Assembly (NCBI GenBank): GCA_023053545.1
Contig: JAKZAN010000005.1
Span: forward strand, 10,292,001-10,356,000
Direction of reading: 5' to 3'
Source of the DNA: Lepidurus packardi
Lineage: Eukaryota; Arthropoda; Branchiopoda; Notostraca; Triopsidae
Length of the DNA: 64,000 bases
Shown: positions 7,263 to 64,000 of the stretch, one piece after another
Layout: each line of letters begins with the position of its first letter
Numbering within the stretch: position 1 is the first letter of the stretch
The notes under the pieces: generated by a model
Seen by the model: the letters and a program-made list of their open reading frames with translations, nothing else
Told to the model about the DNA's origin: nothing
The model's database searches: none
Position numbers and translations under genes: made by a program

Positions 7263-9383
7263 GTCAAGGACGGCTTCTGGGTGTCAGAGGCAGGTACAAT
7301 TGGCTGCAAATTGGGGTGATTGTTAAGGACCGGCTTGGGAGTCCAAGAATTGTCCGTGAACGACTTGAAATTTTCCGAACCTTCCTTTACAGAGATGTTG
7401 GTTCTTTTGAACCTGAAAACACAAAGGGAACAGGAACGTGAGCGAAGAGTTAGGTGACTTGTGCCATTTAATCTCTTTGTCGTAGAGTATAAACAGAGCT
7501 TTTTTGTACATTTCTTAAACTAATCGCTTAAAGTGTGACACCTGATAATTTTTTTTATACTGTTTTTTTTGTTTTGTTTTTTAAACTTCCAAGTCTGCTG
7601 TTTTGGTAGAAATGTCAAGAGTCTGGTCCGTCTTTTTTTGTTTTTAAGGACGAAAAGTTCCCGCCAACCCTTGTTTTATTAGTTCCTGACATGCAACACC
7701 GTGTTAGGAAAGTTTCAACACAGTACTCTCGCGTGTCATTCAGTTATATTGCTTTCTCGCTTCGCTTGATTTATTGCCCAATCTAAGGCTTCGGACGACT
7801 TACTACAGGCAGTTCTTTCCTATCGTGGCTATAAATCCAGGTGATCGCTGAATTCAGTCAAGATCTCCGCAAATTCTAGAGATCCGCTAAACTTAGTTGA
7901 CCTTGAAACAATTCATCTGAATCTCCTAACTCAAAGTAAGTTTTAGGATCGCAGTTCAGAACTTGACCACCATACAAATTTCACTGATTAACAGCAATCA
8001 GCTCGTGCCCGTACAAGGCAGTACAACAATAATTTATGAAATTTATATGAGCTTAAACTCCCATCCAATATCAATATAAAAATTAAAAAGTTCAGAATTT
8101 CTCTGGAATTTCGTGATTCTGAAATTCAGCCCAATTAGAAATTTGCAGAAACGTGGTTACATGTAGCAATACACAGAGATTTAGCTGTATTTGCTTAGTA
8201 ATGAATGTAGCAATGTACATTACATTAACAAGTTTTCAGTGCAGTAATATAATTCCATGATTTTGCAAATTCAGGATTGACTGATTTGGTCATTAGAATA
8301 ATGTAATACTGCCCTTCAGTTGAGTTGCTCTATACAGCATTTCACTTTCAACAGCATTATAAACTTCCTACAGTTAACTGGTATAGTTACGCTTAACTCG
8401 GTAATTCTGTTTGAGCTTGGTCAGTCGCTATAATGTACCCAAATGTACTAATGCAGTTATGCAGTAATGCATTTGGCGAATGCAGTCAATTTGGAGTCTG
8501 TTCAGGGAGGACGGTCAAGGGTTTTCGTCCCCTGGCGAATTCATCTGGGCATTTAAGGCTCATTTAGCTTAAGTGACACGTATCTTAATCACTCCCCGGC
8601 CACGTGGTTTTGCCCTAGCCGTCTTATCACGTGACGCCAGAGGGCCACTTGTTGTTTCTTTCGCTTCCGGAAGCTTAAGAATCTTAAATTCTTATTGCTT
8701 TCTCTAATTGGTTTTCTATTTCTATCTCAGATATGGAAAAAGAAAACTGGTATTAGCTTCCCAAGGAGGATTTACCTGGTGTATTTCTATTGCTAGAGCC
8801 TTTTTGCTTCGGGTGTGGGATATGTTTGATCCAGAATAGACGTTGGGAATCAATGTCCAGCCTTATATTCTCTTTTCTTTCTTTTTTTTCGTTATGAACA
8901 TGTTGTCAAGATGAACGCAATTTGTTGTGATCCTTGTTCCAGCTCTGTTCCGTGTCACGTCGTTAGGGTTCATTCTTCTTCCTTTCCGTCTTTCTTGTTG
9001 GGAGGTACGAAGGCGATCCTGGTGTCGTGCTTGGCTCCCAACAAAAGCGGACAGGCGAGTAGCTGCTCAAAATTTCCGAAGGGAACGGGGGGGACGACGA
9101 CGTGGGATGGGATCCATATGCAGACATATACATATACAATGTACTCCACTAAACAAAGAAGGCGGGGAAAAAATCTTACTAACCTCTATGCCAAGGGCGG
9201 CAGTGACAGATGACGTCATCGCCTCTCGAGCATGCTATTCTAGAAGAAGATATTACACATAGAAAAGGTGGGATTAGGCCTGAGCTCGCATTCAGCATCT
9301 TAAAAAAATCAAATACAATTTATTGTCTTTTGTCCCAAAAACAAAAAAAAACTCTTCCAATACTGGTGTTGGTTCATTAGAAC

Positions 9384-9435
9384 GATGCATCTTCATTACA
9401 GACAACATCTGAATGTTGTGTGTAATGAAGATGTA
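9384..9435. repeat. Isolated 24-bp-stem hairpin
   Basis: The left arm ATGCATCTTCATTACAGACA plus ACAT pairs with the right arm across the 4-nt loop CTGA, with one G-T pair and one mismatch. No longer inverted arms or target-site duplications are evident around it. Confidence 0.6.
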
Positions 9436-9927
9436 TATGGATATAATTTATACGAATTAAATGTGCTTCAAAGATATCAAATTGCTTTTAGAACTTATTG
9501 ATTATTTAAATTGCAAAAAATAAAAACATCCATGGCCAAGGAGAAGGAAATCCTATTTTTGTCTAATCTCTAATGGAATAGATGTCTTGTTCAATTGAAG
9601 AGGAGAAAAAAAATCAATTGAAAATAATTACTTCAAAAACGGGAAACGATTTAACATTCAATTGAAAAATTAATGGATTGAATTGAGACAGTTTCATTGT
9701 TGTGAAAAAAGACGCAGTATCCAGCTTAATCGTTAGAAGGAGGCGTAAATTGAAATTCATTGTCCAATTTGGAAAGAGGCATGCTTCCAAGCCAAGCTAA
9801 GTTTAGAGTACACCAGTTGTATCCTCAAATATAACTTCCTAACAGAAAAATTCAATTTTGAAAATTCTTTAAATTGCTTCTCTGGAATTTGTTTGAGTTA
9901 GAATAGAGGACATAATTGTCAGTGAAC

Positions 9928-59842: not shown

Positions 59843-62800
59843 TCATTCTGGGTCGATTGTCGTAGCTCCCAATTTTTTGGCCACTTCGTTCATATTTTCT
59901 TTTGTTAAAGCAGAATAGAGACTTCCTACTGTACATTGCTTCGGTTTCTGTCCCTTCCACTCCAGTAACATCTGATATACACACTCCCGGCAACCTGCAG
60001 ACCTGTGGGAAGTTTCAATGTTAACCAAAGCAGATTCTTGCAAGCCCAAGGTCCGGCCCAAAGCGCGCCAATTAATATTGTTCATGAAGGACGAGATTTG
60101 CCACAAGTTTTTGTCCGTCAGTATCCGCGGATCCCGCCTAGAAAGAAAATAAACAAGAAAAATTCAACATACTTAAACCAACTTCAAGACACGAAACTTT
60201 TTACGAAAAAATAGCCAAAGGACAAGAAAATTTTTAAACCATTTTCATTCGGCATTTTTACTTACTTGCATTTTTCGGTCGATCGCTCATCTTCGCTCCC
60301 CTCTTCGGCAGGAGGGGGCAGGGCTATAGCTACCGCTTTCCCTCCCCTTTTGCGTTTGATGCCCTTTTTCCTCGCCGGCGTCCTACTCGTCATACTCGCA
60401 GCCACCTTTGATCCCTCTTCGTCATCCTCATCGTCTTCTTCGTCTGCCAAAGGCTCAAGGTCGGAGGAAGAGCTGGAAGTAATTGTCTCAGAAATATCCG
60501 AGTATTGCCTTCGAGGACGTTTGGCAGCACTGCCACCGCTGGTTCTGGTTTTGCTTCCACTCGAGGGGTTGGATTTCTTCGGGAGCGGCGGCTGGGACTT
60601 AAGGGAAGTGGACTGATCCGAGTCTTCATCTTTGGTTCGCCACCGTGCCAAACTCATAAGTCCCATTAATCCGCCACGTTTTCGAAACGAAGAATTCTGA
60701 GAATTCGAAGAGCCTTGCGAGTGGGAGGGGCTTGGAGTAGCACTACTAACGGTAGGGGTGGAGCCACCGCCGCCTTGGGCGGTTAACTGTAACTCGCGAC
60801 TGACCGCGTACAACGCTTGCAGAAATTCCTCAGGACTGCCTTGCCGAGCTTGATACATATTCATCATGGCCAAAAATGGATCCGCGGAGTACTACAACCA
60901 TATATATGTATGTATGAAAAAATCCTTCGAAATATTGAAATTATGATTTTTTTATATTATAATCCTAACATACGTGGAGTTTCGCTTTAATTTCGTTGTG
61001 AGTGAAACCAATATGCTTTGCTAAGCGTTTCCAATTACTGCCTTCCAAAATATGCAAAGTATCCGCCAATTCCTTGATGGCTACTACCGACCAGCGGTCG
61101 CTGCTTTCTGGGGGCGTGACTTCGCCTTCATTTCCTGTCTTTAAACCCGGAAAACAGAAATTATTCAAAATTCTGCAAGAACGGCTAACTTCTTCAAAAC
61201 TTCTCAAAAATCGTTACAGAAAGAATTAGAATAGAAAAAGAAATCGTAGAAAAAAATTCACGTCGGAGACGCTTACTTTGTGTAGATTAAACTCGAAGAT
61301 GGTATCTTTGCGTTCTCCAGGAACCGCCCTTTCCACGACGACTTTACCGAAAGTTCCTCTATCAACTGTGGCTCCCGGTTTAAATCTACACTCGCAAAAA
61401 CCAATTAATTTCATCTTAAATTAAAACATTCCTCAAACATTTCGGCAGTTGTACAGTTTCCGCCCCACATTCTAAATACTAAACCACGAATTAAGAGTGT
61501 GACTGCCATTCGTAGTGCAGAGGCTTTTGTAGGTAACTTTTTAGAATTCACACTGTAGAGGGTTAGGTTAGAACCCAACCTAGCCTGGCTTCTAATAGTG
61601 TTCCACTGGCTGCACTGGTGCAATCTTTTTGGCACTCAGTGTGTCAAACTTGTATACCTTTACACACCGTGTGTACACAGAGTGCCAAAATTGGTGAAGC
61701 AAGCTTAACCTAGTACAGTCTTTACCAAATTCGCTTCCTAGAGGCAAGAATGGGCGAAATTTTTCGCCCATTTTTGCCGCTAAGCAGCGAATTTGGTAAA
61801 GACTCATACCCTAACCCTCTAATGTGTGCATTCTAAAGAGTCACCCACGAAAGCCTCTGCACTAGGAATGGCACATTCGTAAGTTACTGTCTAGAATGTG
61901 GGACGGAAAGTATACAAGTGCCAACATTACTCACCTGCATGCATACTGCTTCTCAAAATCTCTCCCCCGGAAATCGTATTCCTCTTTCACCATCTCCGCG
62001 TCCTCCCCCGCGTCTACGTCTGCTTGAAACAGCTGCGATTTCAGTCTAACTAAAATCCGTCCCGGTCGGACCAATTTGGGTTTCAAACTCGCGCCGACGC
62101 GATGTTTGTAATTCGTCATTTCGGGTAACCGTCTATCACTGCGATGGCAAATAACTTCCAACCCGAAGCGACTGGTATCGGTATTTTCTTCCATAAACGC
62201 TTGGCACATCATGGAGAAGGAGACATAGGGGTAAAAATGGGACATCCCCATCTTTGCTTCGTATAAAGAAGCGCATAAAACATCCCATAAAACTTTGAAA
62301 AAGCTGAAATGATACACGGTAAAAGACACCGTGTACAAGCGCGTGTGAGGGATCCTTTGCACCGCCGGTTCGATTTCCAAACGCTCCCAATTGGGCGGTT
62401 CATTATCCGCGGTCGCCGACTGCCAAACAGATAATCTGGCGCCAAACCGATTGACTATGGTTTGGTAGTCGGGTACGGGTAAAGTGATTCGCACAGGCGA
62501 GTGACTGCTGTCAAACTGGTAACCGTGCGGCTCCACCATGATGACGGGCGAAGCTAACGCTCGTTCGTCTGGGTGTGGCTGCGGATCAGCGCCAGGCTCG
62601 CCGTCGAACAAAATCCGCACGCTGGCAGTTATATCTTCGGTTAAACTGCCCTTAGGGAACGTGATTTCTAAGCCAGGAACGGCTGGGTGTCTCAGATAGC
62701 CGCCAATTCTCCGCCTGACTTTACGGCTAGTCTCTGGGTACGGTTCTTGAACTATACACGTGAAGAGCGAAAAGTGCTGTGCGGTGATAATAACTCTTCC

Positions 62801-64000
62801 ATCGCTGTACCTGCAGAATACAGATAACAAACCAGTTAAGAAATTATGACCATAATGTACAATATTTTTCACGATTAAACGAAATAAACCGTTAAAATGT
62901 TTCAAAATTTGAAATCGATTTAAAGCAGAATTGCTTTAGAGATCGATTTTTTTAAAAAAAACTATTTTAAAGATAGATTTATCCTTGAATTAAAAGCAAT
63001 TCCGCAAATTAATCACAAAATCTTACTAGTCAAATCGAGTTAAAAAAAAAGATACGAAACAATGTAGCTTACAAACTCTAACGATGTATCTATCTTTTTA
63101 ACAGAATTCAAAGTTAAGGGAATTCTATTAATTAAGTTTGAAGTTTTCTTACATATTTGTGCAAAAAAAGCTTAAAACAGCAGTAAGTGCTTGAAATAAG
63201 AAGAAATAATAATCTGAAGAAATAAATACTTGAAATCGGAGGGTGGTAAACGCTCCCATTTGGGCGTGGCGTGACTGGGAGTGTTACTGCACAAGCAAAC
63301 GATGCGTTCATCAGCTTTGGGCTCCAGATTTAACGGCAGAAAGATGAGGGCGGGGCACGTGCCAAAGAACTCGGTACCGTGAGGTTCTACCGATATCACG
63401 TGGCTCGCGTGATGCATACGGAGTGTGCAAGCAGGTACGTAGGTTGGGTTCTTGATGATCTGCAAGGAAAACTCGCTGTGCCCCGAGACGTTATTCCGGG
63501 GTACAATCACATACACATCTTCTTTTCTTAAGACACGAATGTTGTCCTTGTGGCGAAACTCGACCAAGAAATCCCGCTCAGAAGTATTGGTTTCCCAAAA
63601 GTCACAAGTGGGAAGATCGCTGTCCGAATCCCAGCCGGTATTGGATAAATGGCAATCAGAATCTCGATCGCTCTCAGGATCGAGCAGCGAGGAAAAGGTT
63701 GAGCGGATGCTACTGACGCCGCTTTGCTCGCTGCAGCGACAGAGATCACTGACGGTAGAAGGCGAAGGATAAGTAGACACGCCCAGTGAGTTTCGGGAGC
63801 ATTCTGAGGCGGTGCCGTAATCACTCGTATTGCAATCATTGTTCCATGATAAGGAGGTGGAGCCTGCGAGGATTTTCTCCGTCGAGGATGAACCCTTGAG
63901 CTGTATTCGCTGTCTTAACCGACCTTTCCATGAGTTTAGTACGGGGTGCTTAAAAGATCGTTCGTAAATGCAAGTTTGGCAACTTTTTTGTACTAATGCC
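59843..64000 (-). CDS. PIDD1-like protein: two ZU5-type domains, UPA and two death domains (5' end outside window)
   Basis: Exons in phase: 63230 to beyond 64000, 61935-62810, 61277-61385, 60974-61138, 60266-60891, 59843-60137. In order: a Ser/Asp-rich stretch (SDRDSDCHLS), a first ZU5-like domain (VYVIVPRNNVSGHSEFS, then HVISVEPHGTEFFG), HFS at 62768-62776 (ITAQHFSLFTC), a second ZU5 (GLEITFPKGSLTEDI, then VIMVEPHGYQFD), HFS at 62303-62311 (VYHFSFFKVLW), a UPA domain ending IFEFNLHK, death domain 1 (ELADTLHILEGSNWKRLAKH), a Ser-rich then acidic and Lys/Arg-rich linker, and death domain 2 (WRALGRTLGLQESAL to ECVYQMLLEWKGQK). In PIDD1 the protein cuts itself at HFS motifs after each ZU5 to make apoptosis or NF-kB signalling fragments. 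The same arrangement here suggests autoprocessing (inference). Known relatives have one death domain. UNC5 or an ankyrin is less likely because of the two HFS sites. The start is not in the window. Confidence 0.8.
61444..61922. mobile_element. 479-bp foldback element inside the death-domain gene intron
   Basis: Diverged long inverted arms run from GGCAGTTGTACAGTTTCCG on the left to CGGAAAGTATACAAGTGCC on the right, sharing CCCACATTCTA, AGTGCAGAGGCTTT and AGAGGGTTAGG. Inside are two more palindromes: TTTTGGCACTCAG/AGAGTGCCAAAA (61628-61690), and AGTCTTTACCAAATTCGC to its partner (61717-61804). It makes up almost the whole 549-bp intron. Confidence 0.75.

Follow-up and report, generated by a model that had tools for sequence, protein, structure and literature searches.

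A PIDD1-like gene with two HFS motifs and two death domains in Lepidurus packardi

PIDD1 and RAIDD form a platform that is reported to activate caspase-2 (PMC11637483) and to act, for example, at extra centrosomes (PMC11524169). Self-cleavage of PIDD1 is described at two serines: S446, located between the two ZU5 domains, and S588, between the second of these and UPA (PMC11637483). The conserved cut site is given as HF/S in PIDD and as SF/S in the FIIND (ZU5-UPA) of NLRP1 and CARD8, which is likewise described as cleaving itself at the end of ZU5, between F and S (PMC3210808). MACC1, whose closest homolog is SH3BP4, is described as comprising a disordered N-terminus, a ZU5 domain, an SH3 domain and two partially overlapping death domains (PMC11585957).

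Components of this pathway have been reported outside vertebrates. A 2010 annelid cDNA study assigned CRADD homologs to the bilaterian ancestor and described them as lost or diverged in ecdysozoan model species (PMC3018142). An oyster genome annotation includes PIDD1, CRADD, caspase-2 and RIPK1 (PMC8917759), and for cnidarians CRADD CARDs have been compared in work on a coral (PMC7586219), so, judging from these reports, invertebrate PIDDosome parts are not new as such. Among the top-ranked matches for broad queries of open-licence papers, no record of a PIDD-like protein with two death domains was found, and relatives may already be annotated. The gene described here appears to be a variant of the PIDD1 kind, for which the proposed mechanism is plausible and testable. 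With a PIDD1-like gene and a gene of RAIDD layout together in an arthropod, the age of the pathway would become testable, as would the need for the leucine-rich repeat (LRR) part and the contribution of a second death domain.

Gene model and domain layout

The PIDD1-like gene is found on the minus strand of a 64,000-nucleotide stretch of L. packardi DNA (the window), at positions 59843-64000 plus 194 nt past the window end. Its six exons (64194-63230, 62810-61935, 61385-61277, 61138-60974, 60891-60266 and 60137-59843, in coordinates extended beyond the window) splice into a single frame of 1011 aa, and all introns are GT-AG. The frame opens with an ATG at the far end of those 194 nt, and an in-frame TGA comes just before it. 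One soft spot of the model is the exon 4 acceptor (tttaaag), which was selected to preserve the frame; splicing at another AG a few nucleotides on would disrupt it. On sequence grounds the gene model is real and complete, if unusual. Its features, all on the minus strand, are as follows.

63230..64000, minus strand: in-window part of exon 1, with the N-terminus and most of ZU5-1; it runs on to 64194 (ATG)
62732..63573, minus strand: ZU5-1 (about aa 208-348), interrupted by intron 1; second Pfam ZU5 stretch
62768..62776, minus strand: HFS-1 (aa 334-336), predicted cut F335|S336
61935..62810, minus strand: exon 2, with the end of ZU5-1 and HFS-1, ZU5-2 and HFS-2, and most of the presumed UPA
62303..62731, minus strand: ZU5-2 (about aa 349-491); best Pfam ZU5 stretch, aa 358-433
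62303..62311, minus strand: HFS-2 (aa 489-491), predicted cut F490|S491
61277..62302, minus strand: presumed UPA (about aa 492-650), in exons 2 and 3 with intron 2 between, assigned by position only
60784..61099, minus strand: death domain 1, DD1 (about aa 664-741), interrupted by intron 4; Pfam Death 3.5e-8 with 33.9 bits against a cut-off of 22.6
60271..60774, minus strand: linker joining DD1 to DD2 (aa 745-912)
59843..60137, minus strand: exon 6, with death domain 2, DD2 (aa 923-1005; Pfam Death 4.4e-14 for the segment alone), and the stop codon

In a Pfam scan of the 1011-aa protein, only ZU5 and Death exceed the curated cut-off, each matching twice (whole-protein E-values 3.3e-9 and 4.3e-21, respectively). 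The approximately 207 N-terminal residues match no Pfam family and include a basic RPRKRK stretch encoded outside the window. A preliminary description of this DNA had raised the question of LRRs at the 5' end. With the ATG located, this end appears to carry none, unless a further non-coding exon exists: no Pfam LRR is present in the protein, and a simple LRR pattern has no match in minus-strand frames of at least 25 aa in three loci reaching 28 kb beyond the window. The same scan contains no Ig or TSP domain, so the UNC5-type 5' end that the description had weighed against its own reading is not found; UNC5 has a single ZU5 domain and an Ig/TSP ectodomain, in contrast to the two ZU5 units here. 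Ankyrin repeats are also missing from the scan, and the start codon in exon 1 follows a stop.

Upstream, some 600 nt from the ATG, begins an opposite-strand gene that we take to be UBC9-like, and beyond it lies what is presumably a guanylate-cyclase-like gene. Downstream are a short, presumably PDAP1-like gene on the plus strand and then, on the minus strand, one that we take to be BTAF1-like. Intron 2 contains a nested inverted-repeat element (61439-61927) with arms of 67 nt at 87% and 43 nt at 91%, separated by 2 nt. The element has at least 101 matches in the genome, its own copy included, and is therefore MITE-like.

ZU5 units and HFS motifs

The preliminary description had proposed two ZU5 domains, each followed by an HFS motif, and this arrangement is borne out. 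The two units align with each other (z 12.2) with both HFS motifs in one column, and the motifs lie at the positions reported earlier, 62768 and 62303. ZU5-1 as a separate segment scores 18.3 bits (E 0.0028), which is below the Pfam ZU5 cut-off of 21. In composition shuffles of the protein, two or more HFS motifs occurred in 75 of 20,000 cases and at least one in 2,107 of 20,000; by this measure the presence of two is beyond chance.

The 108.6-Mb assembly (344 contigs) has seven ZU5 places, which can be assigned to four genes: the PIDD1-like gene and three others that we take to be Unc5-like (contig C3, 11651137-11653427, separate from the PIDD1-like gene), ankyrin-like and ZO-1-like. At E<=1, a ZU5-ZU5-UPA-DD1 query of the genome returned nothing beyond its own exons. 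Pairwise, ZU5-2 scores higher with the C-terminal ZU5 of the ankyrin-like gene (z 18.6) and with the Unc5-like ZU5 (z 14.7) than with ZU5-1 (z 12.2), and in a PDB search its matches are ankyrins (ankyrin-2, E 8.5e-6). The ends of four other ZU5 domains of the genome were compared by eye, since automatic alignment left those of the N-terminal ankyrin-like and the Unc5-like domains unaligned, and in this reading none of the four has serine at the matching place. They end in PQYFAV (ankyrin-like, N-terminal), SARFWL (ankyrin-like, C-terminal) and LTQFAL (Unc5-like), and the ZO-1-like domain stops after DHF. The phenylalanine at the cut site is common to the ankyrin-like and Unc5-like domains. The ZO-1-like frame (locus L015, about 1924-2205) ends in VSVFVDHF followed by a stop codon, and this stop falls at the place of the predicted HF|S cut of the PIDD1-like protein.

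Neither the genome nor the 1011-aa protein yields a hit to the Peptidase_S68 profile (PF10461) at E<=1. Given a serine comparison made by eye, a ZU5-2 that scores higher with the ankyrin-like and Unc5-like domains than with ZU5-1, and the unmatched Peptidase_S68 profile, self-cleavage at HFS is put forward as a prediction, and a probable one.

The PIDD1 layout claimed in the preliminary description holds in part. The order ZU5-HFS-ZU5-HFS, then the UPA position and a death domain, matches that of PIDD1; neither sequence nor model confirms the UPA label itself. The region fits UPA in position and length. However, Pfam UPA does not match the 1011-aa protein; in the genome the profile (PF17217) finds only the Unc5-like gene and misses the ankyrin-like gene too. 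Pairwise scores are near noise, also among the other UPAs tried (best z 2.0, for a presumed human PIDD1 sequence against ankyrin-like), and a structure model of exon 2 is unusable (pLDDT 32).

Death domains, a candidate adaptor and a proposed mechanism

A second death domain on the same gene had been claimed earlier, and the present analysis agrees: each of the two segments passes the Pfam Death cut-off by itself, and exons 5 and 6 join in phase, so that DD2 is read as part of the same gene model as DD1. The two domains are about 180 aa apart. Between them, the Ser-rich and basic linker of the preliminary description is recovered, with 34 Ser in 168 residues, an acidic run and the basic clusters RKR, KRPR, RKK and KRKR.

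DD2 most closely matches the RIPK1 death domain (E 4.6e-6). Its structure model has six helices (pLDDT 66), and the structural matches are mostly death domains. Pairwise, it scores z 17.9 against the death domain of a CARD-DD gene in the same genome and z 16.8 against human RIPK1; the human PIDD1 and RIPK1 death domains score z 17.9 against each other. DD1 is best classed as a divergent death domain. Queried with the human PIDD1 death domain, the genome yields the ankyrin-like gene alone (E 0.06) and not the PIDD1-like gene; the pairwise z scores of that domain are 12.0 for ankyrin-like, 9.2 for the CARD-DD gene, 7.8 for DD2 and 4.7 for DD1.

The likeness to PIDD1 thus consists of tandem ZU5 units with HF|S after each, then the UPA position and a death domain, and a gene of RAIDD layout in the same genome. 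Unlike PIDD1, the protein has an N-terminal region of about 207 aa in place of LRRs, and it carries one more death domain along with a Ser-rich linker. Because LRRs are absent and the death-domain comparison with PIDD1 is ambiguous, the protein would be a PIDD1 member in the wide sense only. It differs from the FIIND proteins in ending in death domains rather than CARD and in having two ZU5 units.

The gene of RAIDD layout is located on the same contig as the PIDD1-like gene, about 0.97 Mb away (C4, 11329143-11330081). Like RAIDD/CRADD, it encodes a CARD followed by a death domain (Pfam CARD 3.8e-12, Death 1.2e-5), in two exons whose splice join is our reading. In a PDB search its CARD matches a designed protein first (0.0013), and RAIDD (3crd, E 0.03) is tied with CARD11.

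These features suggest that the PIDD1-like protein is probably a self-cleaving scaffold of a PIDDosome-like pathway. By analogy with PIDD1, each ZU5 would cleave the chain it belongs to at HF|S through an acyl shift, which would yield an N-terminal piece of 335 aa, a C piece of 676 aa and a CC piece of 521 aa (UPA-DD1-linker-DD2). The CC piece would be the signalling form. Its DD2 may bind the death domain of the CARD-DD adaptor, whose CARD may in turn recruit an initiator caspase in the way that RAIDD does within the PIDDosome. As a divergent extra death domain, DD1 might serve in self-assembly or bind another partner, and the N-terminal 207 or so residues, presumably disordered, might form the regulatory end in place of LRRs. 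We give this reading, a PIDD1-type scaffold without LRRs for which cleavage, signalling by the CC piece and binding of DD2 to the adaptor are proposed, a probability of about 0.6. Weighing against it are the match of the human PIDD1 death domain to the ankyrin-like gene alone, the higher scores of ZU5-2 with ankyrin-like and Unc5-like domains, the unmatched Peptidase_S68 profile, the lack of LRRs, the assignment of UPA by position, and an exon-wise CARD search that yielded no CARD-bearing caspase; the p53 domain in the genome speaks for it. A more speculative extension, which we hold only tentatively and consider rather doubtful, is an invertebrate and probably arthropod PIDDosome built on a scaffold with a second death domain and no LRR sensor. 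Because cleavage would free a fragment with both death domains, one CC piece could use DD2 to bind a RAIDD-like adaptor and DD1 to nucleate a different assembly or a self-assembly.

The strongest competitor, though an unlikely one, is that the protein is an ankyrin-derived ZU5-ZU5-UPA-DD scaffold that has no ankyrin repeats and does not cut itself, with HFS as a neutral change in an F-rich strand. The domain order is the same as in the ankyrin module, and the closeness of ZU5-2 to ankyrins in both the genome and the PDB, the shared F at the cut site, the unmatched Peptidase_S68 profile and the preference of the human PIDD1 death domain for its ankyrin-like counterpart are all consistent with such an origin. 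However, HFS occurs at both ZU5 ends, twice at the same place and at a frequency rarely reached in shuffles, and a second death domain is present. Moreover, the PIDD1 chains in the comparison were death domains without PIDD1 ZU5, so ankyrin as the best match is not decisive.

It is improbable that the gene encodes instead an adaptor of the MACC1/SH3BP4 type that acts in endocytosis or transcription and in which the HFS motifs are incidental. MACC1, as described, also combines ZU5 with two death domains and has a disordered N-terminus (PMC11585957), where the PIDD1-like protein has a long one that matches no Pfam family, and by overlooking it the preliminary description overstated the uniqueness of two death domains. 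Compared by description, though, the PIDD1-like protein has two ZU5 units with HFS at both, no SH3 at E<=1 in the Pfam scan, and death domains far apart rather than partially overlapping (PMC11585957). Similarly low odds apply to the two death domains occurring mostly in different isoforms. An in-frame TAA lies within a few bases of the exon 5 donor (60266-60262), so retention of intron 5 would give a protein with one death domain. Against this, intron 5 has consensus ends (gtaagt and ttctttctag) that join the exons in phase, and the open frame of exon 6 has no ATG ahead of a Met inside the first predicted helix of DD2. The preferred reading remains that of a PIDD1-type scaffold carrying both domains.

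Other death-domain, CARD and caspase loci in the assembly

The genome search found eight Death places, seven of them over the cut-off and DD2 among these; DD1 was missed because an intron splits it. An exon-wise CARD search found two places, one in the CARD-DD gene and one in a gene that is Apaf-1-like, and thus no CARD-bearing caspase. The genome also holds a p53 domain and 36 caspase-fold matches.

Two caspase-fold loci have unusual surroundings. At contig C5, 2859000-2868900 (about 8165-9900 within the locus), caspase-fold exons are closely followed by a frame with motifs (LLLLDGYEEAGE) that we take to be NACHT-like, and a caspase-NACHT fusion is possible. At contig C3, 10383000-10392900 (about 7550-9700), Ig-like frames precede a caspase-fold exon, an arrangement that to us resembles a MALT1-type paracaspase. 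Finally, the COX1 frames of contigs C52, C214 and C43 have no stops, in contrast to the mitochondrial copies elsewhere in the assembly, which contain TGA; these three contigs are probably bacterial.
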